Assembly (NCBI RefSeq): GCF_005576615.1
Contig: NZ_CP040330.1
Location: 1,178,001 to 1,242,000, forward strand
DNA: 64,000 bases
Direction: 5' to 3'
Origin: Natrinema versiforme
GTDB lineage: Archaea > Halobacteriota > Halobacteria > Halobacteriales > Natrialbaceae
Under the pieces are notes generated by a model. It had not been told where the DNA came from. It was given only the letters and a program-made list of their open reading frames with translations, and searched no databases. How positions within the stretch are numbered: the first letter of the stretch is position 1; every line of letters starts with the position of its first letter. Below, in pieces: positions 1 to 56,354 of the stretch. The position numbers were made by a program, and so were the translations under genes.

Positions 1-652
1 TCCACGCCGCGTGCATCCCGCTGATCCCCGTCCACGCGTGGGCCTCGTCGATCACGAGCAACTCGCAGTTCGCGTGGAAGTCGGCCCAGCGGTGGTGGCC
101 CTCGAGGTACTGGTTCACCCCCGCGAAGTTCGTGATGACGACGTTTGCGTCCTCGCGGATGCGCGCTTTCTCCTGTCGTTTCGTGTCGCCGTCGTAGACG
201 CCGACGGTGACCTCGAGTCCGAGCGCGTCGAAGAGGTCGTTGAGTTCCCGCTCCTGATCGCGGCTGAGCGCCTTCGTCGGGTAAACGAGCAACGCGCGCA
301 CGTCGGAGTTTTCTCGAAACCGTCGCGCGATGTCCAGTCCGTAGACGTAGGTCTTCCCGGAGGACGTCGAGGTCGCGACGCAGACGTTCTCGCCCGCGGA
401 CAGCGACTCGAGCGCCGCGGCCTGATGGCTCCACGGGTCGACCGCGAGTGTCGCCGCGAGTTCGGGCGGTAACACCTCGCGGGCCGGGACGTGGCTGGCG
501 GACTCGGCCGGCAGCGTGAACCGCTCGCGGTCCTGGCCGCTGTAGCGACTCGAGGGATACGTCTCGACCAGTTCCGCGGCGGTCAGCGCGAGGCCGTCCG
601 TCGGGATGCTGTCTCCGTCCGTCGTCAGGGTCTCGGTGTCGTCAGTTGGCAT
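1..652 (-). CDS. DEAD/DEAH-box helicase, MrfA/Hrq1-like (3' end outside window)
   Basis: Superfamily 2 helicase; only the first 217 residues are inside the window. Visible in order: a Q-motif-like WSHQ near residue 77, Walker A (ATSTSSGKT) at 93-101, motif Ia PTKAL near 125, YDGDTKRQEKARI near 154, ITNFAGVNQYL near 175, and Walker B DEAH at 202-205 followed by AWTGISG. The DGDT..R..I and DEAH-x5-G pattern is typical of the YprA/MrfA-Hrq1 group, which carries a DUF1998 zinc region at its C-terminus (not visible here). The ATG at 652 lies two bases after the stop of the upstream exonuclease gene, so the two are almost certainly co-translated. The likely role is 3'-5' unwinding in DNA damage repair. 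The family call is strong; the repair role is inference. Confidence 0.85.
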   Translation of the reverse strand, partial: MPTDDTETLTTDGDSIPTDGLALTAAELVETYPSSRYSGQDRERFTLPAESASHVPAREVLPPELAATLAVDPWSHQAAALESLSAGENVCVATSTSSGKTYVYGLDIARRFRENSDVRALLVYPTKALSRDQERELNDLFDALGLEVTVGVYDGDTKRQEKARIREDANVVITNFAGVNQYLEGHHRWADFHANCELLVIDEAHAWTGISGMHAAW

Positions 653-654
653 AC

Positions 655-2151
655 TCAAAAGTCTGCGAGTCCGGTCTGGGTCGTCGAATCGTCCGTCGCT
701 CGATCTCCGTTTGCGCCGCGCTCGGTCGCGGGCGGAGCCGCGGCGATCGCATCGTAGACCGCGGCCAGTTCGCGAACGTCTGCCTCGCAGTACCGACGCG
801 CCGCGTCCCAGTCGATACCGAAATCGGTCGCGGCATCCGAGCCGCCGTTCGCGCCGGAATCGGGACCGCTCGAGCCCTCGAGCAATCGCCGAATCCGCTC
901 GGCGAGGGTCTTCCCGTCGAGGGCCGCCGCGGCACCCGAGCGGTCGCAGCCGAGCGCGTGCGCGACATCCTCGAGTCGGTCGGTCCGGCCCGGCAGGACG
1001 GCATTGTCCCGTCGCACCGCCCAGTCGTAGGGATCGTAGGTGGACACGTGTTCGCGCCAATACTCGTGATACGCGGGCGCGTCACGGGCGATGAACCGCT
1101 CGAGGTGCTCGTAGTCGAACGAGTGGCCGTTCCACGCGACCAGCGACGGGGCGTCGTACTCGGCGGCCAGCCACGAGACGAACTCGCGGGTCGCCGCGCC
1201 CGGGTCGTCGCGGGTCGGCTCGGTGTCGACGAAGTCGAGGTAGGCGTCGCGTTCGGGATCGTAGACACCGATTACCCAGATGATCGTCGGCTGGAGCCCG
1301 TCGGTTTCGATGTCGACGAACAGCGGCGTCGCCGCGTCGGCCGCCGGCGGGACCGGGTCGGCGGTTCGTCGGACGACGCGGGACTCGGCGAGCGCCCGCG
1401 CGCCGTCGACGATCTCGCGAGCCGTCGACGTGCCGATGCCGTCGATCGCACACAGCGCCGTCTCCGTCGCCTCGGCGACGGCCGCGCGCGTGTCGTACCC
1501 GTTTTCCCGAAGTCGCTCCGCCGTCGTCGGGCCGACGCCGGCGAGCGCCCGCAGCCCGAACCGGTCCGCCGGGACCGACGAGACCGCGACCGACCCCGAT
1601 CGATCGCAGGTGAGACCCGCGAGTTCCGCGGCACCGGACCGGCGGAGCGGGGCGACCCCCCGAACCGGCAGTCGGACCGACTCGCCGTCGACGGTCGCCG
1701 CCCAGACGTGGTCGTAACTCGCCTCGAGCGCGCCGGTGAGAAACGTCGGGTCCCCGCCCGCTCGGGCCCGGTAGCGGGCGGCGGCCTCGCGGCCGGCGAG
1801 AGTCGCCGCCAGCGAGACGGCGTCGGTCGTCGGCTCGAGGTCGTCACAGACGACGTAGTCAGCGGATGGGTGGCTTTCGGCCGCGTCCTCGAGCAGCGCG
1901 GCCGATCCCGAGAAGAGAAACGAAACGTCACCGACGGTCTCCGTCCGGACCTCCGCGGGACCGGCGGCGGAGACGACCGGCCCGTCGAACGCGCGCCGGA
2001 GGCGGCTCACGACGCGGACGTCCGAGGCGTCGCGAACGACGTAGACGAGGGCCGGATCGAAGTAGCCGAGCACGTCGCGCAGCGCCGACCCGTCCAGTTC
2101 GGCGACGGCGTCACAGCGCAGCGCCAACAGCTCGGCACCCTCGGCAGACAT
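655..2151 (-). CDS. RNase H-fold 3'-5' exonuclease with HhH motifs, MrfB/YprB-like
   Basis: 498 residues. The C-terminal half has a DEDD exonuclease pattern: D280-I-E282 (LFVDIETDG), D346 in WNGHSFDYEHL, and Y454-x3-D458 in YCEAD, which fits the DEDDy subclass. Before it are two helix-hairpin-helix motifs, LAGVGPTTAERL (203-214) and IDGIGTSTAREI (236-247), suggesting duplex or junction binding. The N-terminal 190 residues look like a further RNase H-like or nuclease-remnant domain without clear catalytic residues. It is followed after two bases by the MrfA-like helicase, the same helicase-exonuclease pairing as Bacillus YprA/YprB (MrfAB), which repairs mitomycin C lesions. No TPR region is obvious. 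Start chosen at MSAEGAE. Enzyme class confident; pathway inferred from the pairing. Confidence 0.85.
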   Translation of the reverse strand: MSAEGAELLALRCDAVAELDGSALRDVLGYFDPALVYVVRDASDVRVVSRLRRAFDGPVVSAAGPAEVRTETVGDVSFLFSGSAALLEDAAESHPSADYVVCDDLEPTTDAVSLAATLAGREAAARYRARAGGDPTFLTGALEASYDHVWAATVDGESVRLPVRGVAPLRRSGAAELAGLTCDRSGSVAVSSVPADRFGLRALAGVGPTTAERLRENGYDTRAAVAEATETALCAIDGIGTSTAREIVDGARALAESRVVRRTADPVPPAADAATPLFVDIETDGLQPTIIWVIGVYDPERDAYLDFVDTEPTRDDPGAATREFVSWLAAEYDAPSLVAWNGHSFDYEHLERFIARDAPAYHEYWREHVSTYDPYDWAVRRDNAVLPGRTDRLEDVAHALGCDRSGAAAALDGKTLAERIRRLLEGSSGPDSGANGGSDAATDFGIDWDAARRYCEADVRELAAVYDAIAAAPPATERGANGDRATDDSTTQTGLADF

Positions 2152-2214
2152 AGAGATGGCCTAGCAGCGGGCGGCCATAAGGTTCGTGGACTCGCGCGGT
2201 CCGCGAGCCCCGCT

Positions 2215-2298
2215 CATACGGTCTCCTGTCCGTCATTGCCGGCGCAACCCAGCGCGGTCGGGGTTGCGCCGGTCAATCAGTACCGCGACCCGTATCAG
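2215..2298. repeat. 84-bp dispersed palindromic repeat, copy 1
   Basis: Holds a perfect 12-bp inverted repeat (CCGGCGCAACCC / GGGTTGCGCCGG) inside imperfect outer ends (CATACGG... / ...CCGTATCAG). A second 84-bp copy lies at 30292-30375. The stop codon of the thioredoxin gene (2295-2297) falls in its right end, so insertion here may have set that protein's C-terminus. Confidence 0.8.
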
Positions 2299-2645
2299 TC
2301 GGCGTCGACGGCGTTCGGAACGTGGGTCTCGAGGAAGTCGGTAACGGCGTCGCCGCCCTGAAAGCCCTCCGCCAGTCGCGCGGTTTCGTCACCGTCCTCG
2401 AACAGGATCAGCGTCGGCACCGACCGGATGTCGAACCGGTCGACGAGCTCGATATCGTCGCCGGGGTTGACCATCCCGATGGCGACGTCGGTCGCGCGGG
2501 CGACGTTCCCCAGTACCGGCTCCATCGCCTGACACAGCGCACAGCCGCTGGTGTAGAACTCGACGAGCGCCACGTCGTGGCTCTCCACGAAGGTCTCGAG
2601 GTCGTCGCCGGTCTCGAACCGGCTCGGTTTGCTGGTCGCGGCCAT
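2295..2645 (-). CDS. thioredoxin family protein
   Basis: 116 residues with a thioredoxin fold. The redox motif is C35-A-L-C38 (FYTSGCALCQAM), not the classical WCGPC, and the cis-proline loop is present in RSVPTLILFEDGD. It would act as a cytoplasmic thiol-disulfide oxidoreductase, but the non-canonical CALC centre means its redox potential and partners may differ from housekeeping TrxA. The start MAATSKPS was chosen because the upstream in-frame extension is Arg/Ser-rich shadow sequence without thioredoxin similarity. The gene's last codons and stop overlap the 84-bp palindromic repeat. No obvious operon partner: the MrfB-like gene begins 143 bases further along the same strand. Confidence 0.85.
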   Translation of the reverse strand: MAATSKPSRFETGDDLETFVESHDVALVEFYTSGCALCQAMEPVLGNVARATDVAIGMVNPGDDIELVDRFDIRSVPTLILFEDGDETARLAEGFQGGDAVTDFLETHVPNAVDAD

Positions 2646-2853
2646 ACTCGAACGGAGGGTCTCGCCGCGGAAATCGGTGACGGATGTCGCGGTGTTCGGC
2701 CGACGGAGAGGGCCTATTCGACGGACGGCGCCACGTCGACACGACACCCCTCGGATCGATTGACGGTGTCGTAGCGGAGATTCACCGGTAAACTGTATTG
2801 TGTGAAGGGGTTACGGAGTGTGACTTTATACGTGGCCGCTGTAGCCTCGCTCG

Positions 2854-3201
2854 ATGACCCAGCCAGCATCCACCCGCGACGACGGTGCGCCGACACGGCG
2901 AAAAGCGACGCTGTTCTGCTGGGAGTGTGATCACGCGAGTCCGATCGACGGCGACTGGCAGGTGCAGTCACGGCCACGACACGTCGCATACGTCTGCCCG
3001 TCCTGTGAGACCACGCTCGCGAAACGACCGCGGCGTACCGACCCGTCGCCCGCTCGAGCGCCGACCCCGCTGACGGTGTGGCGGCGCGCGCTCCGCACCT
3101 CGGCGACCGTCTGGCGGGCGAGCATCGATATCGGCATCTCGAGTCTGACCGCAGCGGCGGCGGTCGGTGCCGTCAGCGGCCGCGCCTTCGAGATGAGCTA
3201 A
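2854..3201 (+). CDS. haloarchaeal zinc-ribbon protein of unknown function
   Basis: 115 residues. Two CxxC knuckles, C22-W-E-C25 and C48-P-S-C51, form a small zinc ribbon in the first half. The second half contains a Ser/Ala-rich stretch (about residues 95-108) that could be an amphipathic or weak membrane segment. A good TATA-like CTTTATACG lies about 26 bases before the ATG, so the mRNA is probably leaderless, which supports both the start and the reality of the gene. Function unknown; the two-knuckle ribbon suggests nucleic-acid or protein binding, but nothing specific can be read. Confidence 0.7.
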   Translation: MTQPASTRDDGAPTRRKATLFCWECDHASPIDGDWQVQSRPRHVAYVCPSCETTLAKRPRRTDPSPARAPTPLTVWRRALRTSATVWRASIDIGISSLTAAAAVGAVSGRAFEMS

Positions 3202-3404
3202 CCGGCCCGCCGGGCGGTAACGGCGGCGGGAACGCGCGATTCGATCGGACCGGTGAACCGCGTTCTCGAGCCGACTCTCCACGACTATTCAATTCCGACG
3301 ATATTTTTCAGCCAATGTCATCCTCACTCCGAATATTCCATATTATAAACTACGAACGACCATTTTTATCTCCATTTGCGGATATTCGCCAACAACAATA
3401 GAAC

Positions 3405-3420
3405 TTTAATAGTAGAATCC
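3405..3420 (+). promoter_or_regulatory. TATA element of glnA
   Basis: The AT-rich run around CTTTAATAG lies about 28 bases before the ATG at 3442, placing the transcript start at or a few bases before the start codon. The whole 3283-3441 stretch is much more AT-rich than its surroundings and holds other TATA-like words, so nitrogen-regulated alternative starts are possible. Confidence 0.5.
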
Positions 3421-3441
3421 ATTGGCTTAGGCGAGCAGAAG

Positions 3442-4794
3442 ATGACGAACGGAAACTTAACCGCCGCGGAAGAGGACGTACTGGACGAGATCGAGGAGGA
3501 GAACATCGACTTCCTCCGACTGCAGTTTACCGACATTCTCGGGACGGTCAAGAACGTCTCCGTGCCGGCCCGACAGGCCGAGAAGGCGTTCACCGAGGGA
3601 ATCTACTTCGACGGCTCCTCGATCGAAGGCTTCGTTCGCATTCAGGAGTCGGACATGCGGCTCAAGCCCGACCCGGACACGTTCGCGATTCTCCCGTGGC
3701 AGGACCGCGAGGACGGCGCATCGGCCCGAATGATCTGTGACGTCATCGACACCTCCACGGGCGAGCCCTTCGAGGGCGACCCGCGCCGCGTGCTCAAGAA
3801 CGCACTCGAGCGCGCCGACGACCTCGGCTACACGGTCAACGCCGCGCCCGAGCCGGAGTTCTTCCTCTTCGAGGAGGACGAGGACGGCCGCGCGACGACG
3901 GAGACGGGCGACCATGGCGGCTACTTCGACCTCGCGCCGAAAGACCTCGCGAGCGACGTCCGCCGCGACATCATCTACGGCCTCGAGGACATGGGCTTCG
4001 AGATCGAAGCGAGCCACCACGAGGTCGCCAAGGGCCAACACGAGATCAACTTCGAGTACGACGACGCCCTGACGACGGCGGACAACGTCGCCACCTTCCG
4101 GACTGTCGTCCGCGCCATCGCCGCCCAACACGACCAGCACGCGACGTTCATGCCCAAGCCGATCCCACGCATCAACGGCTCGGGGATGCACACGCACCTC
4201 TCGCTGTTCGAAGACGGCGAGAACGCGTTCCACGACGACGACGACGAGTTCGACCTCTCGGAGACCGCTCACTCCTTCATCGCCGGGATCCTCGAGCACG
4301 CGCCGGCGATCACGGCGATCTCGAACCCTACCGTCAACAGCTACAAGCGACTGGTGCCCGGCTACGAGGCACCCGTCTACGTCGCGTGGTCCGACCGCAA
4401 CCGCTCGGCACTGATCCGCAAACCGGCCGCCCGCGTCCCGGCCGCCTCGCGCATCGAGGCCCGCTTCCCCGACCCGTCCTGTAACCCCTACCTCGCGCTC
4501 GCGGCGCTCATCCACGCGGGTCTCGACGGGGTCGAGCGCGACCTCGACTGTCCGGACCCGGTCCGGGAGAACATCTACGAGTTCGACGAGGAGAAACGCG
4601 AAGAGTACGGCATCGACACGCTGCCGACGAACCTCGGCGAGGCCGTCGAGGCCCTCGAGGAGGACGAAGTCATCTACAGCGCGCTCGGCGAGCACGTCGG
4701 GCCGAAGTTCGTCGAGGCCAAGAGCCAAGAGTTCGAGGACTACCTCGTCGACGTCTCCGACTGGGAACTCGACCGCTACCTCGAGACCTTCTGA
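3442..4794 (+). CDS. glnA: glutamine synthetase, type I
   Basis: 450 residues, normal length for archaeal GSI. It forms glutamine from glutamate, ammonia and ATP in the cytoplasm. Motifs seen: beta-grasp FDGSSIEGF (56-64), a glutamate/metal-site EPEFFLFE region, [12 protein letters not shown] near residue 244, and the [26 protein letters not shown] block near 330-350. There is no recognisable adenylylation tyrosine loop; control through GlnK, as known in haloarchaea, is therefore more likely. The start at MTNGNLT was chosen over an upstream in-frame ATG at 3376 because the TATA element at about 3410 fits transcription starting just before 3442, and family members begin near here. Convergent with the small winged-helix gene downstream. 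Confidence 0.97.
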
Positions 4795-4946
4795 GGCGAC
4801 TCCCGCTTTCACCGCGTCTAACTCCGCCGCGATCGACACACCGGCGACGATTCTGTGACTGCCGCGGCTCACTGCGGCCGATTCCGTTTTCGTCGACACC
4901 GTCGTGAGAACAGCGACCCCTCGTCGGCTCCGCCCGCGTCTCGGGA

Positions 4947-5180
4947 TTAGTTTGCGACGACGTACTCCGAGTCCGCCTGCTCGACGTAGCCGGCACTCGA
5001 GAGCGAGTTCAGCACGCTCAGAACGTCGATCTTCTTCATCGCCAGTATCTCCCCCAGTTCGTCGATCGTCGCGCCGTCGGCCGCCTCGAGATAGAGATAG
5101 ACGAGTTTCGCGCTGGCTGACTCGAGGTCGTCGGGAACCGGATCGATCCGGGTGTCGGGACGCTGCTTTTGTGAACTCAT
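4947..5180 (-). CDS. small winged-helix (HTH) protein
   Basis: 77 residues. After a basic/polar N-terminus (about 1-17) the rest is one winged helix: helix 1 around SAKLVYLYLEAADG, then TIDELGEILAMKKIDVLSVLNSLSSAGYVEQADSEY, the classic helix-turn-helix plus wing. Likely a DNA-binding regulator of the MarR/ArsR/TrmB type, reduced to the DNA-binding domain alone. The TATA-like TTTATATAC lies about 25-30 bases before the ATG at 5180, supporting this start over the in-frame ATG at 5219. It is convergent with glnA, so a nitrogen link is possible but unproven. Confidence 0.75.
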   Translation of the reverse strand: MSSQKQRPDTRIDPVPDDLESASAKLVYLYLEAADGATIDELGEILAMKKIDVLSVLNSLSSAGYVEQADSEYVVAN

Positions 5181-5368
5181 TGTCACCTGTGTCGACCTCG
5201 TTCTAGTATATAAAGCCACTCGTAATTGGAGTACTGATGCATACTAGGACTCAATACGGATCGAGTCAACACACCGCAGATCGCGATGAACGAGACGGTC
5301 TCGAGACTGGACGGCACTCTCGGACGGAAAGACGATGTTTTACGGTCGTCAGCCCACCACCGAGAGAC

Positions 5369-5683
5369 ATGACCGCGGACGAGCGACCGACTGTGCCGAC
5401 GGAACTGGACCGCACGGGTCGCGAGGCAGTCCGAGAACTCGCGACGCGAGAGCCGGCGACGCTCCGGGCAGTGAGTTCCTATCTCGAGGAGGTGGCGGCG
5501 TGGAAAGCACGGGACGGCGAAGCGGAGAAAGGGGACGAGTCAACAGTGGCCGATCCGGAGACGTACCCCGACGGCATCCCGGAACGAGCGACGGTCTCGG
5601 TGACTGAGATCGCCGGCGTCGAGTACTACTACTACCAGTGGCGAGACGGTGACGAAATCAGGTCCGAAACGAGAGAGCGGTGA
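5369..5683 (+). CDS. small conserved haloarchaeal protein of unknown function
   Basis: 104 residues, acidic. The N-terminal half (about 10-45) is predicted helical (RTGREAVRELATREPATLRAVSSYLEEVAAWKA); the C-terminal part has a Tyr-rich strand (VEYYYYQWRDGDEIRSE) resembling the ending of a compact beta-sheet domain. The start at MTADERP was chosen because an in-frame upstream extension to 5237 lacks similarity to a folded protein. No catalytic motif visible. Function unknown. Confidence 0.6.
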   Translation: MTADERPTVPTELDRTGREAVRELATREPATLRAVSSYLEEVAAWKARDGEAEKGDESTVADPETYPDGIPERATVSVTEIAGVEYYYYQWRDGDEIRSETRER

Positions 5684-5777
5684 TCCTCGTGCAACCGCGG
5701 TCGGTTCTGCCGAGCGAGGGGGTGCGATTCAGCGTCTCCACACCGGGAGCCGGTCACGCGACCGGGCCAGTCGGCGG

Positions 5778-6602
5778 TTACTCGGACTCGAGCACTCGTT
5801 CAATCGCGTCCGCCACCCGCCGGGGCTGTGTCATCGGTTTCGTGGCACACCGAATTGGAAGCGGCCACGGCAGTCCGCGACGGATCTCGAGACGGCCGTC
5901 CGTGAGATCGACTGACTGCAACTGAGTACGGGGGACAAACTGGTAATTGAACGTCTTCGCTCGGCGAACGCACAGCCCGCTCTCGAAGAGCGTGTACGTT
6001 CGCTGTCTGCCGCCGCCGATCGCCTGTCCGATCATCGCACCACCGAACGCAGGAAGCGGATTGAGGACCAGCGGAATCGAGACTGTGAGAAGAAGGCCGC
6101 CGACGAGGCAGACGCAACCGAGAGCGAACCCGAGTCCGCGAATCAGTCGCCGGTATCTGGTATCTGGATGCGATGTCCACTCGGCCAGGACCGATTCCCG
6201 TTCACGAAGGGACGCCGCGTGTCGGTTCACGGTGACGAAATAGAAGACCGCTCCCGCGAGGGCGAAGACGAGGTATTCACCAAGCCAGGCCCTCAGCCAC
6301 GTCTCGTAGCCACGGGTGGCGGTCAGTTGGAAAAGCAAAACCGCAAGAACCGGGACGAATACGGCTATGATCGGGAAAAGGTACAGCCGCGTTCGGACGA
6401 GGGAAGTCGCAGGAGCCGTCGACAGATAGGTACGGAGTGCCACGAGAAGACCGGTACACCCACCAGCAACCACGGACCACGCTGTGACGTATCCCGATCC
6501 GAGGACGAGGCCCGTTCCACCCAGCGTGAGAAGGCCGACGTAACTCCCAGCAACGACCGAGAAGAACGCCGCAGAGGGTTGGCGGAACGACATATCCTCC
6601 AA
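5778..6602 (-). CDS. membrane protein with C-terminal PH-like domain, unknown function
   Basis: 274 residues. Hydrophobic segments around 12-35, 40-58, 75-95, 110-128 and 155-190 suggest four to six membrane spans. The C-terminal 80 residues (TYTLFESGLCVRR...TQLQSVDLTDGRLEIRRGL) resemble the YdbT/PH-like or YcxB-like domains found at the end of many small archaeal membrane proteins. The alternative start MSFRQP (6593) is equally possible. The sequence is slightly less GC-rich than its neighbours. No operon partner. Confidence 0.65.
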   Translation of the reverse strand: MEDMSFRQPSAAFFSVVAGSYVGLLTLGGTGLVLGSGYVTAWSVVAGGCTGLLVALRTYLSTAPATSLVRTRLYLFPIIAVFVPVLAVLLFQLTATRGYETWLRAWLGEYLVFALAGAVFYFVTVNRHAASLRERESVLAEWTSHPDTRYRRLIRGLGFALGCVCLVGGLLLTVSIPLVLNPLPAFGGAMIGQAIGGGRQRTYTLFESGLCVRRAKTFNYQFVPRTQLQSVDLTDGRLEIRRGLPWPLPIRCATKPMTQPRRVADAIERVLESE

Positions 6603-6702
6603 TTATGTAGTCTGTCTTAAATTACCTTGGGAGTAGATTCGATAGCGTGGAAAGATAGTGATTTGTCGATCCTGCTTGTTTCGGTCGGTCCCACTCGTTT
6701 CC

Positions 6703-7542
6703 TTACACCGATTCGTACGGCCCGAGTCGCGTCCCGTCTACCAGGTAGGCCTCGCCCCCGGCCAGCCCTGCGGGGAGAAACGGCGAGAGAAACGACTGCC
6801 CGGTCACGTTGATCCACGTCCCGCCGACGAGGTCGTTGAACGCCGGTATCACGACCGCTCGAGGCGGTGGTTCGTCCGCGTCCTCGAGCCACGAGACCCC
6901 CTCGTACTCGGGGCGGTCGCGAAACGGCTCGAGATCGAGGCGGCCGCGCAGCCACGCGCGCTCGACGCGACTACCGCCGACCTCGTCCTCGAGTCGCACA
7001 CAGGGGTGTTCGTGGCCCAGACAGAGTACGTCGCTCTCGAGGGCGGCCCGCGACGGCCACGTGTGGCCGTGACAGACGCCGATATCGCCGAGGGCAACGC
7101 CGTCGCCGGGGACGACATCGACCGTCGCCTCGATATCGTCGCCGTCAGCCAGCCACGTTTCGATCCGGCCGTCGTGGTTGCCCTTGACGACCGTCACCGC
7201 GAGATCGGCTCCGAAGGATTCGAACAGCACCTCGAGTTCGCCGCGTTCGGCCCCGCCGGGGTCCCCGATCGAGTGCATCAGATCGCCGCAGACGACCAGC
7301 CGATCGGGGTCGGTGCGCTCGAGCAGAGACAGCAGTCGCTCCCGGCGGTCGGGTGCCTGACTCGGAACGTCGACGCCGCGCTCGTATCGCAGCCCCGCCT
7401 CGTAGCCGGCGTGGTAGTCGGCGACGAACAGTGCTCGATCGCCGCCGACCGCGGCGGTCGCGGCCGGTTCGCCGGGAAGCGGTTCGATTCGAGTCGGCGG
7501 CGACCCGGCTTCAGTCGTGCTGGGACGGGAATCGTCTCGCAT
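6703..7542 (-). CDS. rpe: calcineurin-like metallophosphoesterase of the RPA1 operon (Rpe)
   Basis: 279 residues. It carries the metallophosphoesterase blocks in order: ADYHAG (near 42), VCGDLMHS (near 84), KGNHDG (near 120), VCHGHTWP (near 157) and LGHEHPCV (near 173), which build a dimetal site. In Haloferax the third gene of the rpa1-rpap1-rpe operon encodes such a protein, and gene order, strand and family match here. Starts 10 bases after the rpap1 stop, so it is part of the same transcript. Its substrate is not known; a DNA phosphodiester or nucleotide is plausible by association. Confidence 0.88.
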   Translation of the reverse strand: MRDDSRPSTTEAGSPPTRIEPLPGEPAATAAVGGDRALFVADYHAGYEAGLRYERGVDVPSQAPDRRERLLSLLERTDPDRLVVCGDLMHSIGDPGGAERGELEVLFESFGADLAVTVVKGNHDGRIETWLADGDDIEATVDVVPGDGVALGDIGVCHGHTWPSRAALESDVLCLGHEHPCVRLEDEVGGSRVERAWLRGRLDLEPFRDRPEYEGVSWLEDADEPPPRAVVIPAFNDLVGGTWINVTGQSFLSPFLPAGLAGGEAYLVDGTRLGPYESV

Positions 7543-7552
7543 CGTCGCCCGA

Positions 7553-9361
7553 TCAGATCGCCTTCAGCGTCTCGTCGTCGGGTTCGTAACACTGGCCGCC
7601 CATCAGGGCGTCCTGAATTGCGTCTTCGACCTCGGTGGCGGACGCGCCGGTGTCGTCGGCGACCGCCTCGATCAGCGCCGTCCGATCGGCACCGTCGCCG
7701 TCGTCGAGTTCCTCCATGGTCTCGACGACGTAGTCCTCGAGATCGACGTCCGCGGCCGGTTCGTCGTCATCCTCGGTGTCGTCGATGTCGGCCTCCTCGT
7801 CGGCTTCGGATTCGGACTCGGCGTCCGGTTCGTCGGTCTCGTCGGCCTCCTCGGCCTCGAGTCCGGACTCCGGCGGTGCGCCGAGGTCGTCGGCGGGCTC
7901 GCTCGATTCGGTGTCGGCGGTATCGCTCTCCGCCGGCTCGGTCGCCGTCTCAGCGTCGCCCGTGGCGTCGTCCGATTCGGACTCGTCGCCGGTCTCGGCG
8001 TCCTCCGGCTCGGGAACGTCGATATCGGCCTCGCCGGGGTCGTCGACCTCGCTGCCGGTCGTGAACTCCGCGCCGAACTCCTCCTCGAGCTGTTCGCGCT
8101 CCGCTTCGTCCATCTCGTACATGCTGTCGTCGACGTCGCCGGCGTCGAAGTCGCCGAGATCGTCGGCGTCATCGGCATCATCGGCGTCGTCGGACGCCGA
8201 CTCCTCGACAGCGGGCTCGTCGACGGCGTCGTCCGTCGTTTCAGTCCCGGTATCGGATTCGAAATCGACGGATTCCGATTCCTCGCTCGCCGAGCCACCG
8301 GTCGCCGTCTCGGCGGTCTCGGATTCGGACTCCGAGTCGGTGACACCACTCGTGTCCGTGCCGAGGTCGCCCTCGGCCGTGTCGTTCTCGGACTCGGCCG
8401 CGGTCGGTTCGCTCTCGAGGTCAGCGTCGATCTCGGCGCTCTCGGCGGCGTCCGTCCCGTCGCTCGTGGCCGTTCCGGCCGCGGAGCCGGAGTGTGCGTC
8501 CGCGGGGTCGGCCGCTGCGCCGCTGCCGCCGGCCGCCGCCGCGACCGGCTCCGGTTCCGGTTCGGACTCGGCACCGGCCTCGAGCGCCTCGGTATCGACG
8601 CCCTCGAGATCGGCGAGTGACGCGACGGACGCGTCGTAGTCGGGGCTCGTCGCGTCGGGCGCGATATCGAGCCCGCTGACCTGATCGCGCTCGCCCGCGA
8701 CGACCTCGACCGCCTCGAGCGCGCACTCGCGCAGCGCGGCGAGATACGACGGCGTCGTCCCGTAGTGTTCTTGTGCGAGCGGAATTCCCGCTGCCAGACC
8801 AGATTCGACGCCGGCCTCGAGCAGGGCGTCGGTCAGCGCCTCGTCAGTCACACCGAGTTCGGTGGCTCCCGCGACGGTGCCGATCCGCTCGAGGGTTTGC
8901 TCGGTCGCGCTGACGACCCAGCGATCCCGGGTGTCGGCGTCGACCGTCGCGATGCTTTCCGGACGGATCGAGGTGTAGACCTGCTCCGAATCGTCGGGCT
9001 GGAAGGTCCGGGCCTTGCCCGTCACCGCGACGAACGCCGGCGGTTCGGCCTGCTCTAAGAAGGCGAGTTCGTCGGGCTGGTACTGGCCGGCGTAGACGAC
9101 GAACGCGCCGGTCGGGTCGACGACGCGGGCCCGGACCATCTCGTCGTTGACCGACGTGACTTCGGTCAGCGTCCCGACGGCGAAGACCCGGTTGAGCCGC
9201 GCGCCGGTCGGCGTGATCACGTAGTTCGGGGCCCGTTCCTCGTCGCTCTCGGCGTAGGAGAGCGAGGCGTCGTCGTACTCCGCCGCGAAGAGCCGGTAGG
9301 CGAGTTCTCGTCCCGGCACCTCGTCGTCGCCATCGCCGTTTCCGTCGTCGTTCGCGCTCAT
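7553..9361 (-). CDS. rpap1: RPA-associated protein (RPAP1, COG3390)
   Basis: 602 residues. An N-terminal OB-fold-like domain (about 15-165, with NYVITPTGARLNRVFAVGTLTEV and the following DPTGAFVVYAG) is followed by a helical region to about 235. Then comes about 270 residues of Glu/Asp/Ser/Ala low complexity, and a winged-helix-like C-terminus (VDLEDYVVETMEELDDGDGADRTALIEAVADDTG). In Haloferax RPAPs partner specifically with their cognate RPA on single-stranded DNA. Start MSANDD at 9361 overlaps the rpa1 stop in ATGA; the longer open frame to 9724 is only the shadow of rpa1. The acidic linker is far longer than needed for a simple connector. Confidence 0.9.
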   Translation of the reverse strand: MSANDDGNGDGDDEVPGRELAYRLFAAEYDDASLSYAESDEERAPNYVITPTGARLNRVFAVGTLTEVTSVNDEMVRARVVDPTGAFVVYAGQYQPDELAFLEQAEPPAFVAVTGKARTFQPDDSEQVYTSIRPESIATVDADTRDRWVVSATEQTLERIGTVAGATELGVTDEALTDALLEAGVESGLAAGIPLAQEHYGTTPSYLAALRECALEAVEVVAGERDQVSGLDIAPDATSPDYDASVASLADLEGVDTEALEAGAESEPEPEPVAAAAGGSGAAADPADAHSGSAAGTATSDGTDAAESAEIDADLESEPTAAESENDTAEGDLGTDTSGVTDSESESETAETATGGSASEESESVDFESDTGTETTDDAVDEPAVEESASDDADDADDADDLGDFDAGDVDDSMYEMDEAEREQLEEEFGAEFTTGSEVDDPGEADIDVPEPEDAETGDESESDDATGDAETATEPAESDTADTESSEPADDLGAPPESGLEAEEADETDEPDAESESEADEEADIDDTEDDDEPAADVDLEDYVVETMEELDDGDGADRTALIEAVADDTGASATEVEDAIQDALMGGQCYEPDDETLKAI

Positions 9362-32791: not shown

Positions 32792-33313
32792 TCACCCGTC
32801 TCCCTCCTCGATCAACGAATCGCTCAGGTCCTGTAACTCCGACTCGAGTCGCTGGTAGCCCTCGGTCTCGGTCAACTCCTCGACGGAGTGCTCGTCCTCT
32901 AAGGTCTCCATCTTGTTCGAGATGGACTCGAGTTCGCGCCGGTCGCCGCCGCCGTAGCGCGACTGGACCCGCAGGTTCTCGATGATTCGGGTCAACTGGG
33001 CTCGCGTGACCGGCTTCGTGACGTAGTCGTCGAGATCCAGTTCGACGATATCCAGTCCCGGATCGACGGCGGTCACCATGATCACCCAGCAGTCGTAGCC
33101 CGCCGCGCGGATCTCCTCGAGCACGCGATCCCCGGTGATATCGGGCATGTGCCGGTCGAGCAGGACGATGTCGATCGCGTCGCTCATTCGCTCGAGTGCG
33201 GTGGTCCCGTCGTAGGCGGTCACGACCTCGTAATCCTCACCGACCCACATCGCGTAGAGGTCGGCCAACTCCCGTTCGTCGTCGACGACGAGAATCGTCG
33301 GTTGCGCAGACAT
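32792..33313 (-). CDS. response regulator with HalX domain
   Basis: 173 residues. Receiver domain: acidic pair D11-D12 (VVDDEREL), phospho-acceptor D53 in IVLLDRHMPD, T81 and K100 in DDYVTKPVT. The C-terminal 65 residues (ENLRVQSRYGGGDRRELESISNKMETLEDEHSVEELTETEGYQRLESELQDL) are the haloarchaeal HalX coiled helices. It should be phosphorylated by a histidine kinase encoded elsewhere. The start MSAQPTI (33313) fits the receiver fold; the longer frame is shadow. Confidence 0.92.
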   Translation of the reverse strand: MSAQPTILVVDDERELADLYAMWVGEDYEVVTAYDGTTALERMSDAIDIVLLDRHMPDITGDRVLEEIRAAGYDCWVIMVTAVDPGLDIVELDLDDYVTKPVTRAQLTRIIENLRVQSRYGGGDRRELESISNKMETLEDEHSVEELTETEGYQRLESELQDLSDSLIEEGDG

Positions 33314-33416
33314 AGAGATCAGTGTCCGAGACCACAAACCGCCGTCTTGTAGGGATTCCGGGCGACTCAGTACTCGAGTCGGGCGCTGATTCGGTCGTTC
33401 GGCGAGAAAAGGGCGG

Positions 33417-33614
33417 TCAGCGGAAGGGGTCGCTGCAGTCGAGGATGACCCCGTGCTGGGGACAGACGTACTTGCAGTGACGTTTGTACATCGGGGCCTC
33501 GCAGTGCGGACAGCGCGGCGCGCCGGCAGGTTGGGATACTGTCTTTTCTCCGTCTGTTCCGACCGCTTTATCTGTGCGATCTTCGGCGACAGACTCATCG
33601 ATGTCGGCAGTCAT
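33417..33614 (-). CDS. small haloarchaeal zinc finger protein, HVO_2523-like
   Basis: 65 residues. The C-terminal half has two zinc knuckles, C-P-H-C and C-P-Q-H plus C/H residues: CPHCEAPMYKRHCKYVCPQHGVILDCSD. This fits the family of very small haloarchaeal zinc fingers (the HVO_2523-like assignment is from memory of the motif, not a search). The N-terminal 30 residues are acidic and disordered. The likely role is nucleic-acid or protein binding. Confidence 0.75.
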   Translation of the reverse strand: MTADIDESVAEDRTDKAVGTDGEKTVSQPAGAPRCPHCEAPMYKRHCKYVCPQHGVILDCSDPFR

Positions 33615-33711
33615 ATATTTTCTATCGATCCGCCCGTGCTAAGTCCTGACGATCGGCTCAAGTTACGGGGAAAGCGAGCGCAGCCGAAATCGATCAGTTT
33701 TGGGTTCGTTC

Positions 33712-33794
33712 TATAGTGGCCACGGAAAATCATTGATACCAGATCACGCGACAGCGTTGCCAGCAGAGTGTGAATCGTTTCAGTGGCTACTATA
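33712..33794. mobile_element. MITE, copy 1 (non-autonomous transposon relic)
   Basis: An 83-bp element with terminal inverted repeats of about 17 bp: TATAGTGGCCACGGAAA at the left and TTTCAGTGGCTACTATA at the right, differing at a few positions. The interior has no gene. A related element lies at 56279-56354, sharing the GTAGCCACTGAAACGA end. The surrounding 33615-33979 is AT-rich with no gene. Confidence 0.75.
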
Positions 33795-33979
33795 AATGCC
33801 ATTGTGTTTATTGAGTTTCCGTATTGTACGCGTGAGCACTCGACGGCATATCGTTGATTATCCCGCTATCTATCGTTTCGCTCGGCGTCCGCACGGCGGT
33901 TGTCGTTTTCCGGTGCTGATATGCCGAGTCCACCCGAGAAGCGGATGAAGCGTCCGCTGATTGGGCACCGATAGACTGA

Positions 33980-34876
33980 TCAGCAGTTGCATTGGGAGTC
34001 GATGACTGCTGGGAGCTTTTCACGCTCGTCCCACTGTAGATGCACGTCACACGGTAACTCCGAGCCAACGACGAGATACGTATAGTCGTACCTATCCATG
34101 AATTTCGTAGCCTTCGTTTCATCGTCTTCCCAAACCATTCCCTTGACCTCAATCACTACGTTCTCTGTAACGAAACCCGGCGTGTATGTGCGATCACCCA
34201 ATTCAAAATATCGGTCTTCATACGTATAATCGATCCCCGCATCATACAAGATTAGATCTATTGCTGCTTCCCAACCGTTTCTGACGATATTTCTCGTCTT
34301 AATGACCTGGCGTGGTTTGGATCTTCCCGGTACACGCCCTTTCAGTGCGTCACTGAGTCTCTGAAGTTGCTCATCCGACCAGTCGTATCCATAAAGCGGA
34401 TGGTCCTCTCCTGTCCGCCCATACATCGAATGCTTCGTTGGATCTTCTTCGTATGTCTCTTTAAGTGATTCAGATAGTCTCTGTCGGCTTTCTTCGTCCA
34501 TCTCGAAAGAGACGCCATACATTGGATGATCTTCGCCAGTGACTCCGTACCAAGGGTTATTTTCACCCTGTAGAGATTTACTTATTTTTCGGCGTGTTTC
34601 TTCAGACACTTCGTGTCCTGTCAAAGATTCGCTGATCTTCCGCTTCGCTTCTTCTGGCATTTCCCTTCCTGAAGACGCTTCACCGATCTTTCGTTTTGCT
34701 TCCTCGGACATCTCGTGTCCTTTCATTGGGTGATTTTCACCGGATATGAGATCACGACCTAGCTCTTCCTGACTCTCGGTAGTTTCTTCACAATATCTCA
34801 CCAAATGAACCCCGATACCGTACTCGTTCTTGAAATCATCCCTTCCGCAGGCTGGACATTCTTCTATATCATTCAT
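33980..34876 (-). CDS. NUMOD3-containing homing-endonuclease-like protein
   Basis: 298 residues. An N-terminal zinc finger (CPACGRDDF...HLVRYC, 7-29) is followed by several NUMOD3-type DNA-binding repeats (about 45-185: GENHPMKGHEMSEEAKRKIG, GENNPWYG, GEDHPMYG, GEDHPLYG). The C-terminal nuclease domain (about 200-290) resembles VSR/EDxHD or PD-(D/E)xK enzymes: E203 in GWEAAID, then YTPGF and IEVKG (E243, K245). Where the family usually has Asp (YTPDF), Gly234 (codon GGT) is present, so activity may be reduced. AT-rich, unlike its neighbours, and 70 bases downstream of nrdJ. Gene transfer is likely. Confidence 0.85.
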   Translation of the reverse strand: MNDIEECPACGRDDFKNEYGIGVHLVRYCEETTESQEELGRDLISGENHPMKGHEMSEEAKRKIGEASSGREMPEEAKRKISESLTGHEVSEETRRKISKSLQGENNPWYGVTGEDHPMYGVSFEMDEESRQRLSESLKETYEEDPTKHSMYGRTGEDHPLYGYDWSDEQLQRLSDALKGRVPGRSKPRQVIKTRNIVRNGWEAAIDLILYDAGIDYTYEDRYFELGDRTYTPGFVTENVVIEVKGMVWEDDETKATKFMDRYDYTYLVVGSELPCDVHLQWDEREKLPAVIDSQCNC

Positions 34877-34946
34877 AAAGAGGTTTCTACCGCATTGGTT
34901 TAAAAAATATAAGCCGCGAATCTATCGTTTCAACAGTACTACTGGA

Positions 34947-37900
34947 TCAACATTCCGACCAGCCACAACTATTGCAAGTTTTGCAGCCTTCGGAGAAGTA
35001 CAGCGACATCGAGCCGCAGTCGGGACACTCCGGCGATTCGCCGGCGTCGATGAGGTCTTGGGTCGTGTCGTCGTCAGCGTCCGCGGTCGAGCCGCTATCG
35101 GCGGCGGCCGCGCCGCCGTCGGTCTTCGGCCCGTCGTACTCGGCGAAGTCCGCGTCGGCCGACTCCTCGAGCGTCTGCTGTTTCGGGTACGGCTTGTCGA
35201 TCTCGTTCTCGAGGTAGCGGCGCATCGCGGTGCCGATGGCGTCGGGGATGGACTGGATCTGTTCGCCCTTGTCCCACGCGACCTTCGGCGAGCGCGTGCC
35301 ACAGAGTTCGTCGACGATCTCCTCGGGGTCGACGCCCGAACGCAGCGAGGTCGAGATGACCTTCGCCAGCGCCTCGGTAAAGGAGTTCGTGAAGCCACCG
35401 GAGTGGCCGATGTTGGCGAACAGCTCGAACGGCTGGCCGGTCTCGGGGTCCTCGTTGATCGTCACGTAGATCTTCCCGTAGCCGGTGTCGATGCGCTGGC
35501 TGACGCCCTGCAGGGCGTCGGGACGCTCGCGCTTCTCGGTGAAGTCGATCTCGACCGGTTGGCCGTCCTCGCCGAGCAGCGCGTCGACGTCCTCCTCGAG
35601 GACGTCCGCGACCTCTTCGCTCTCGAGGAAGCCTTCGAGACCGCCGAAGATCTCGTCGATCTGTTCGACCAGGGCCTGTGCGGCCTCGGTCTCGTCGGCG
35701 AAGTCGGCGTTGTCTGCGCGCGTCGTCAGCACCTGCTTCGAGCGGGTGCCGTCGCGGTAGTAGGTGACGCCCTTGCCGCCGTTCTCGTAGACCCACTCGA
35801 AGACCTCCTTTGCGTCCTCGAGCGAGGAGTCGTTGGGTGCGTTGACCGTCTTCGAGATCGAGGAGTCGACGCCCTTCTGACAGGCACACTGGACCGCGGC
35901 GTGCTGTTTCGCGGAGAGGTCGCTGGTGATGACGAACAGTTCGCCGATGGCGTCGGGCACGGTCGAGAGCCCTTCGACGCCGTCGAACTGGTTCGTCGCC
36001 ATCTGCTCCTGTGCCTCCTCCTTGACGGCGTCGACGTCGATGTCGTTCGCCTCGAGGGTGCGCAGGAAGTAGTCGTCGAACTCGACGAGCATCTCGTCGC
36101 CCTGGACGTCGTCGGTGACGTTCTTGTAGTAGGCGACGTTGTAGATGGGCTCGCAGCCGCCGGTGGTGTTGCCGACCATGGAGGTCGTTCCGGTCGGCGC
36201 GATGGTCGTGACGTTGTGGTTGCGGATGGGGAAGCCGTCTTCCCAGTCGTCGGCGTCCTCGCCGGTCTGGTGCTCGAACCACTCGCGGTACTCGGTCGGG
36301 TTCGCGTACTTCGAGTCGCCCCAGTCGTTAAAGGAGCCGCGCTCGGTGGCGAGTTCGTGGCTCTTGGCCTTCGCGCCGTGGTTGATGTGGGTCATCAGCT
36401 GGCGGGCGACTTCGTTCCCTTCGTCGCTGCCGTACTTGATCCCGAGCTGGACGTACAGCTGAGCGAGCCCCATGATGCCCAGCCCGATCTTGCGCATGTC
36501 CCGGACCTTCTCCTCGATCTCTTCGACCGGGAAGTCGGACATCGTGACGACGTTCTCGAGGAAGCGCGTGCCGTACTCGATGCGCTCGTCGAACTCCTCG
36601 AAGTCGATGGCCTCCTCGAGGAAGGCTTCGATAGCCGCCGCTTGGGAGTCGTACTCGTCGCCGTGTTCGTCGGACCAGACGCGCCAGTCGGGGGCGTCCA
36701 GATCGGCGAGCGTCGAGAGGTTGATGTGGCCGAGGTTACAGGCCTCGTGTTCCTCCAGCGGCTGTTCGCCACAGGGGTTGGTCGCGAGGATCTGGTGGTC
36801 CTCCTGTTTCTCGACGTCGAAGGAGTGCTGGTCGTTCACTCGCTCGAGGTAGATGACGCCCGGTTCGCCGTTCTCGTGTGCGCCTTGGACGATGCGTTCC
36901 CAGACGAGTTCCGCGGGGACCGAGAGCGGTTCGCCGACCTCGACGTGCTCGCCGAGGTCGTACCGGCTGTACATCTCCTTGGTCTCCTCGCTCGCGATGT
37001 GGGGCTCTTCCGTCCGCGGGTTGGTGAAGGTGTACTCCTCGCCGTTCTGGACGGCCTCCATGAAGTCGTCCGTGACGCCGACGGAGATGTTGAAGTTCGA
37101 GAGGTGGCCCTCGACGGCGTTGCGCAGGTGCTTGGGGACCCGCCCGTCCTCGTCGATCAGCTCGCGGGCCTCCTCGAGCGCTTCCGAGAAGGTGGTGTAG
37201 GTGTAGTCGTCGGGGTCGTTGAGTCGCAGCGTGTGGGCCAGCGAGACATCCTTGTTCTTGGCGTGGATGAACTCGATAACGTCCGGGTGGGAGACGCGCA
37301 TGATGCCCATCTGGGCACCGCGTCGGGTTCCGCCCTGAGCGATCGTCTCACAGAGCTGGTCGTAGGTCCGCATGAAGGTGATCGGGCCGGAGGCGATACC
37401 GCCCGTCGAGCCGACCGAGTCGCCGTAGGGACGCAGTTGCCAGAAGCCGTAGCCGACGCCGCCGCCGGACTGGAAGACTTCGGCCGCCTTCTTGGCGGTC
37501 TCGTGGATGTCCGAGAGGTCGTCGTCGGGCGACATAACGAAACAGGCCGAGAGCTGCTGGAGTTCGTCACCGGCGTTCATCAGCGTCGGCGAGTTCGGCA
37601 TGAAGGAAAGCGACTCCATGCCGTCCGTGAAGGTCCCGGCGACGTCCTCGACGTGGCTTCGGACCTCGTCGGGAAGCTCGGGGACGACCGTCTCGTAGGC
37701 GAACTTGTTGACGTTGTGTTCGGTCAGGGCGGTTTCCGCGTCGTCGTCGGCCGTCACGCCCTTGTCTTCTCGCGGGCTTTGCCCGCTCGAACGGTCCGAG
37801 GCGCTTTGCGCCTCGCTACCGAAGACCTCCGCGGCGAGCTCGTCTCGGCGCGGGTGGTCGGGCTTCAACTGGTCGGGCGTGACCGTGATCTCGAGGTCGC

Positions 37901-38126
37901 GCTTTTCGGCCTCGTAGACGGCTTCGGCCAGCGCGACGTTCTTGCCGACGCGGTCGAAGAGGTCCTCTTGGGTCTCGATCAGCTCGCCGTTCGAGTCCTT
38001 CCGGAGATACCGGGCCGGGAGAATGTTCTGGTATGCGTTGTCAGTTAATCGTTCCTCTAAGGTGTCACCATCGGAGCGCTTGATCGGAAGCGTGAGGTCT
38101 GCCGCGGAGAGTTCGACATCGCTCAC
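34947..38126 (-). CDS. nrdJ: adenosylcobalamin-dependent (class II) ribonucleoside-diphosphate reductase
   Basis: 1059 residues from the GTG at 38126. Key sites: FMPNSPTLMNAGDELQQLSACFV (first redox Cys), FQSGGGVGYGFWQLRP, GQ-type loop GGTRRGAQMGIMRVSHPD, radical-cysteine region NPCGEQPLEEHEACNLG, PTGTTSMVGNTTGGCEPIYNV, and a C-terminal zinc ribbon CPDCGSMSLYF...CKTCNSCGW. Makes deoxynucleotides using cobalamin. The GTG at 38126 was chosen (SDVELSAADLTLPIK) over the in-frame ATG at 38150. A small upstream frame ends in GTGA here. Residues about 104-118 contain an in-frame insertion encoded by two hairpins. No intein. Confidence 0.95.
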   Translation of the reverse strand: MSDVELSAADLTLPIKRSDGDTLEERLTDNAYQNILPARYLRKDSNGELIETQEDLFDRVGKNVALAEAVYEAEKRDLEITVTPDQLKPDHPRRDELAAEVFGSEAQSASDRSSGQSPREDKGVTADDDAETALTEHNVNKFAYETVVPELPDEVRSHVEDVAGTFTDGMESLSFMPNSPTLMNAGDELQQLSACFVMSPDDDLSDIHETAKKAAEVFQSGGGVGYGFWQLRPYGDSVGSTGGIASGPITFMRTYDQLCETIAQGGTRRGAQMGIMRVSHPDVIEFIHAKNKDVSLAHTLRLNDPDDYTYTTFSEALEEARELIDEDGRVPKHLRNAVEGHLSNFNISVGVTDDFMEAVQNGEEYTFTNPRTEEPHIASEETKEMYSRYDLGEHVEVGEPLSVPAELVWERIVQGAHENGEPGVIYLERVNDQHSFDVEKQEDHQILATNPCGEQPLEEHEACNLGHINLSTLADLDAPDWRVWSDEHGDEYDSQAAAIEAFLEEAIDFEEFDERIEYGTRFLENVVTMSDFPVEEIEEKVRDMRKIGLGIMGLAQLYVQLGIKYGSDEGNEVARQLMTHINHGAKAKSHELATERGSFNDWGDSKYANPTEYREWFEHQTGEDADDWEDGFPIRNHNVTTIAPTGTTSMVGNTTGGCEPIYNVAYYKNVTDDVQGDEMLVEFDDYFLRTLEANDIDVDAVKEEAQEQMATNQFDGVEGLSTVPDAIGELFVITSDLSAKQHAAVQCACQKGVDSSISKTVNAPNDSSLEDAKEVFEWVYENGGKGVTYYRDGTRSKQVLTTRADNADFADETEAAQALVEQIDEIFGGLEGFLESEEVADVLEEDVDALLGEDGQPVEIDFTEKRERPDALQGVSQRIDTGYGKIYVTINEDPETGQPFELFANIGHSGGFTNSFTEALAKVISTSLRSGVDPEEIVDELCGTRSPKVAWDKGEQIQSIPDAIGTAMRRYLENEIDKPYPKQQTLEESADADFAEYDGPKTDGGAAAADSGSTADADDDTTQDLIDAGESPECPDCGSMSLYFSEGCKTCNSCGWSEC
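37772..37814. repeat. two 3-nt-loop hairpins inserted in frame in nrdJ
   Basis: GCGGGC-TTT-GCCCGC (37772-37786) and GAGGCGC-TTT-GCGCCTC (37798-37814) are perfect stems with identical TTT loops, 11 bases apart, inside a non-conserved Ser/Asp-rich loop of NrdJ. Confidence 0.75.
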
Positions 38127-38224
38127 GCGTGCGTCACCTCGTCGGTACACTGCTGCAGCACGTCGATTCTGGCGTCGGACTGGGTCCTAGCTCGCATCAT
38201 TCGTAACGAAGGTTCGATATTCAT
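38123..38224 (-). CDS. possible short upstream ORF of nrdJ
   Basis: A 33-residue frame begins at the ATG at 38224, with internal ATG-ATG at 38200/38197. It ends at TGA 38123-38125 so that GTGA overlaps the nrdJ start. The TATA-like TTTTATG (about 38231-38241) suggests transcription starts near 38205-38212, so the shorter version of about 25 residues is more realistic. Could couple translation to nrdJ or be chance. Confidence 0.25.
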   Translation of the reverse strand: MNIEPSLRMMRARTQSDARIDVLQQCTDEVTHA

Positions 38225-56278: not shown

Positions 56279-56354
56279 GTAGCCACTGAAACGAGTTCCA
56301 CACTGATCGTACCGCCGGCCAGCGATCAGGTGTGCATTGACTTTCAGTGGCGAC
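56279..56354. mobile_element. MITE, copy 2 (decayed member of the same family)
   Basis: The left end GTAGCCACTGAAACGAGTTC and the right end TTTCAGTGGCGAC form imperfect inverted repeats. The GTAGCCACTGAAACGA run equals one end of the MITE at 33712-33794, read on the other strand. The interior is of similar length and alignable. The rest of the 56262-56646 gap has no gene. Confidence 0.65.

Follow-up and report, generated by a model that had tools for sequence, protein, structure and literature searches.

A probable free-standing homing endonuclease element with a recoded gene tail at the 3′ end of haloarchaeal nrdJ

Why does a free-standing, AT-rich nuclease gene lie directly behind the class II ribonucleotide reductase gene nrdJ of Natrinema versiforme, and what has happened to the end of the gene that it follows? 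The features concerned, in the window (the whole 64,000-nucleotide stretch of DNA analyzed here) and in related loci, are collected in Table 1. The ORF starts with ATG 70 bp past the nrdJ stop codon and encodes an N-terminal finger of the pattern CPAC...H...C, NUMOD3 in four stretches (Pfam E 1.8e-25, 89 bits against a gathering score of 20.4) and a nuclease domain with the motifs YTPGF, in which Gly stands where D is expected, and then, toward the C terminus, IEVKG. This position and domain order agree with an earlier sequence-only reading. The gene is outside any intron or intein, nrdJ being uninterrupted with its frame intact, and a group I or group II intron, or another kind of structured RNA, was rejected for that reason and because no Rfam intron was found within 33300-35200. 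Its GC content is 47% in surroundings of about 65%, so that the AT-richness remarked on earlier is real; by itself it does not indicate recent import, since all four orthologous genes are low in GC (45-51%), which makes this a family trait. The small zinc-ribbon gene starts ∼110 bp past nrdJ in gene-free congeners; in the window, the endonuclease gene and a further 365 bp lie between the two. The palindromic repeat in those 365 bp occurs about ten times in the genome, at 73-84% identity, with a second copy in the window (56279-56354), and is an insertion separate from the endonuclease element.

Table 1. Features of the nrdJ locus in the window and of related loci elsewhere
Feature	Position	Strand	Remarks
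NUMOD3/T7-endonuclease-I-like homing endonuclease gene, free-standing	33980..34876	-	298 aa, Asp234 = Gly
Nuclease domain, about residues 185-298	33980..34324	-	E203 (WE), G234, E243, K245
C2HC-type finger, N-terminal, about residues 6-29	34790..34861	-	CPACGRDDFKNEYGIGVHLVRYC; from sequence, finger conserved in orthologues
Spacer, endonuclease gene to nrdJ stop	34877..34946	-	70 bp; unalignable with gene-free sister genome
Likely archaeal TATA box for endonuclease gene, within spacer	34897-34911	-	TATATTTTTTAAACC
nrdJ, class II ribonucleotide reductase, host gene	34947..38150	-	intein-free in this genome
Recoded nrdJ tail, last 36 bp (12 codons including stop)	34947..34982	-	CKTCNSCGWSEC end; co-occurs with endonuclease gene
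Small zinc-ribbon gene, far side of insertion	33417..33614	-	directly after nrdJ in gene-free relatives
MITE-like palindromic repeat, downstream of endonuclease gene	33712..33794	.	83 bp
thyX tail and its repeat, HVTV-1 (L069)	7714-7752 and 8478-8516		
polB-splitting relative, G247	L100 (G247:C6:83000-95000) 5275-8987	minus	
polB-splitting relative, G408	L099 (G408:C3) 281-5191		

The nuclease had been taken at first for the VSR type. No Vsr-type family matched in Pfam at E up to 1, and a Vsr or EDxHD-type nuclease was rejected for want of Pfam support. With the single window sequence, Pfam gave a weak match to phage endonuclease I (residues 191-256, E 0.003, 17.5 bits against a cut-off of 29.1), PHROGs matched an “endonuclease” family (1.4e-30) and a Holliday-junction-resolvase family (6.5e-4), and T7 endonuclease I ranked first in a phmmer search of the PDB (E 0.03). 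A profile of 19 relatives matched T7 endonuclease I (Phage_endo_I, PF05367; PDB 1m0d) with an E value of 9.2e-8 over about 70 positions, TYTPDF and VETKG being in register, so that the domain is a T7-endonuclease-I-like PD-(D/E)XK nuclease. The aligned E, D, E, and K are presumably the catalytic residues of T7 endonuclease I. The likeness lies in the nuclease domain: T7 endonuclease I is a stand-alone resolvase with neither finger nor NUMOD3, unlike the window protein, in which, moreover, Gly replaces the Asp. An AlphaFold model of the single window sequence had a mean pLDDT of 32, too low for interpretation.

The catalytic set E-D-E-K, complete in the wider family, is thus incomplete in the window copy. 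All three orthologues, from genomes G023 (82% identical), G096 (74%), and G021 (74%), read YTPDF, and in about 30 relatives beyond these the nuclease domain likewise has Asp at the YxPDF position, leaving the window protein as the only Gly member. The metal-binding Asp aligns at this position in every other aligned member and was found at no other, so that its loss, GGT versus GAT and hence one transition, is real, as had been proposed, and it is private to the window genome. Gly234 may be a sequencing error or a strain polymorphism, the species being represented by one genome. The window branch has 9 unique amino acid changes versus 12, 21, and 23 on the other branches and thus no excess; together with a dN of 0.10-0.21 at saturated synonymous sites, this suggests that the gene was constrained until recently, and it appears to be under purifying selection. 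Catalytic activity has probably been lost from the window copy. Of the earlier alternatives “disabled or adapted,” the first is the more likely, and the second has nothing in its favor beyond the open frame. We think it unlikely that the window copy has been repurposed, the D234G protein binding DNA and repressing or marking its own site near nrdJ: a fully open frame and a branch with few changes would fit such a role but are equally expected from a recent substitution, and Asp is kept in every other member, so that there is no lineage in which the role persisted. This alternative concerns the window copy and is compatible with a homing explanation for the family.

The endonuclease gene is present in 4 of 125 genomes of the family, each from another genus, and in all four it directly follows nrdJ on the same strand, with gaps of about 70, 72, 76, and 107 bp. 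The other 28 genomes of the window's genus do not have it. Presence in four genera and absence from their congeners indicate that the gene is mobile, and presence or absence at one site, nrdJ, among related genomes is a mark of a free-standing homing endonuclease. The sequence-only reading of a mobile, homing-endonuclease-type gene tied to nrdJ is borne out by these four close copies, a small sample in which all adjoin nrdJ; orthologues away from nrdJ were sought, and none was found. The copies from G023 and G096 are apparently intact, that of the window has the catalytic substitution, and that of G021 is interrupted by a TGA near codon 95. A fifth, distant match (G007) is an intein in an RfcS gene. 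A pattern scan of GTDB r220 contigs and viral contigs confirmed no close relative, the scan being insensitive where a genome search found relatives.

Comparison of nrdJ 3′ flanks with and without the gene, which had been suggested as a way of finding the insertion site, revealed a point missed in the earlier note: the insertion is marked by a recoding of the last 36 bp of nrdJ, which belongs to the element and is the strongest indication of its site of action. The carrier genes end in AAA ACN TGC AAT AGY TGY GGN TGG TCS GAA TGY TGA (CKTCNSCGWSEC), and most others end in AAG ACS TGC GAG TCC TGT GGC TGG AGC GAG TGC TGA (CKTCESCGWSEC). Between the window and its closest gene-free sister, G077, 39 of 1365 positions differ in the body of nrdJ (2.9%) and none from -66 to -35, versus 11 of the last 36 (31%, p 1e-8); comparison of each of the three other carriers with members of its own genus gives a like jump (p 0.014 to 1e-5). 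By pattern search, CNSC-type tails occur in 7 of the 125 family genomes (the four carriers together with G071, G074, and G078), and CESC-type tails in 107, none of them a carrier (Fisher p 5e-6 for association of the CNSC tail with the gene). Across the class (391 genomes), tails of this kind are found in six: the four carriers, G074, and, as a CNNC variant, G247. The tail is AT-rich in all four carriers and in each has the Asn codon AAT, which makes up 0/22, 1/22, 2/22, and 1/23 in the nrdJ bodies. The mismatch jump limited to the tail, the co-occurrence, and the AAT usage show that the tail arrived together with the endonuclease gene. The difference at the presumed site between carrier and non-carrier genomes is also the pattern of flank co-conversion.

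Genomes G074 (L014), G071 (L015), and G078 (L020) have the foreign nrdJ tail, no endonuclease gene, and ordinary flanking DNA; these tail-only alleles have arisen either through loss of the gene or through short-tract conversion. A CNNC tail is present in G055 (L071), a genome with no endonuclease of the family at E 0.001, and in G247 (L116), where no endonuclease of the family was found alongside and the long match is on a different contig, in polB. In some gene-free genomes of another genus (e.g., G103), the codons of the tail recur in part. A viral donor of the tail was rejected, haloviral nrdJ tails being CEAC-type, not CNSC. Downstream of the endonuclease gene, a displaced native nrdJ tail could not be found convincingly above shuffled sequences.

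The tail might instead be the target, not a shield, with the gene inserting only where a CNSC tail that had spread by other means already exists. We regard this as improbable: the three tail-only genomes, with their ordinary DNA past the stop codon, speak for it, but an active gene would bring about cutting of its own chromosome at an intact target 100 bp away, the four genera in which the tail came with the gene otherwise have mostly CESC tails, and the G078 tail has drifted at two codons to the common ones (AAC and GAG), as expected of a relic. Equally improbable is plain homologous recombination with an AT-rich donor, replacing the nrdJ 3′ end and the DNA downstream with the endonuclease as passenger: AT-richness extends over tail, spacer, and gene, and haloarchaea recombine often (PMC4071816, PMC3990103), but the tract covers only about 36 bp of the 3.2-kb nrdJ, an identical tail type recurs in four genera, the endonuclease gene is under apparent purifying selection, and its copies are only 67-76% identical in DNA (83-94% for the tails), which argues against one recent spread.

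The best account, which we hold with considerable though not full confidence, is a free-standing homing endonuclease element at the nrdJ 3′ end that carries a recoded tail. The mobile unit would consist of the recoded 36-bp tail of nrdJ, the spacer with its promoter, and the endonuclease gene. The finger and NUMOD3 repeats would recognize the normal nrdJ 3′ end, where the conserved cysteine tail of the C terminus is encoded, and the T7-endonuclease-I-like domain would cut this CESC-type end; repair from an element-bearing chromosome would then bring in the endonuclease gene together with the recoded tail, with which the reductase would still work and the target would be gone. We infer, then, that the protein cuts the normal nrdJ end and that the recoding blocks cutting. 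The intact, substituted, and nonsense copies and the three tail-only congeners fit a homing cycle. Against homing, the nrdJ cases have no displaced native tail, unlike the thyX case below; the tail without the gene in three congeners means that the tail might have spread first; and the AT-richness of the tail could reflect an AT-rich donor, not selection to escape cutting.

Relatives of the gene are found at other loci. In the haloviruses HVTV-1 (L069) and HCTV-5 (L118), a relative follows thyX at a distance of 38 bp. Its final 13 codons, counting the stop, duplicate those of thyX in recoded form with nearly identical protein, EEM[I/V]HRKNRLAP, over 41 bp; no counterpart follows the related thyX of HCTV-1. 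Such a repeat is the remnant that would be expected if a tail-bearing element had inserted 13 codons before the old stop, and the duplication reads as a direct trace of an element bringing its own tail. In G247 and G408, which belong to two families, a relative inside polB divides it into two ORFs, one ending in ...KKRYAGLKSWIR at a stop codon and the other running M-NELPG...DITGFEY.... No second polB was found in G247 (99% complete) or G408 (88% complete), and polB in these genomes is a gene in pieces; phage Aeh1 has a comparably split nrdA. The RfcS inteins of many haloarchaea, in frames of about 770-890 aa (e.g., L005/L047, L048, and L066), carry the NUMOD3/T7-endonuclease-I-type nuclease domain; one of them (L111) has ELKE instead of EVKG, and its nuclease has probably lost activity. 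nrdJ itself hosts inteins in many relatives. The nrdJ, thyX, polB, and rfcS cases are all consistent with homing into conserved parts of genes for DNA synthesis. Whether they extend to a general rule seems to us evenly balanced: a hitherto undescribed NUMOD3/T7-endonuclease-I homing family of haloarchaea and their viruses would target conserved ends or active-site stretches of these four essential genes, its free-standing members carrying a recoded tail of ∼12 codons.

Intronless homing is known from phages (PMC2988022), and the nrdJ element resembles the free-standing endonucleases of T-even phages in lying outside an intron or intein near its presumed target and in flank co-conversion. It differs from them in its archaeal chromosomal setting, in having a T7-endonuclease-I-like and not a GIY-YIG or HNH nuclease, and in a recurrent unit that includes the 36-bp tail, whereas T-even cut sites are hundreds to thousands of bp away (PMC2988022). 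F-CphI of cyanophage S-PM2 is likewise a free-standing, Holliday-junction-resolvase-type nuclease, but it is of phage source and has the endonuclease VII motif of the DHHRN family (PMC6083498), for which reason we rejected membership in the same nuclease family. The LAGLIDADG genes of Haloferax are free-standing homing endonucleases on haloarchaeal chromosomes but belong to another nuclease family, lie in glycosylation islands, and have no target gene identified (PMC5867893). Among the haloarchaeal inteins of rfc and rir1 (PMC4071816), those of RfcS share the nuclease domain with the window gene, which differs in lying outside its host gene and having no splicing domain. The literature searched, which included few subscription journals, contained no description of a tail-carrying element at nrdJ. 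New here are the archaeal setting, the nuclease family, and the recoded tail; intronless homing is known.

Most known free-standing homing endonucleases come from phages, whereas this one is on an archaeal chromosome beside an essential gene. The intact, disabled, nonsense, and lost states among its relatives make the homing cycle directly testable, and the recoded tail offers a cheap test of how the element shields the gene that it attacks. Protecting the attacked gene is a trick built into engineered home-and-rescue drives (PMC7968924), and, if the general rule for the NUMOD3/T7-endonuclease-I family holds, that family would be a natural counterpart of the home-and-rescue gene drive.
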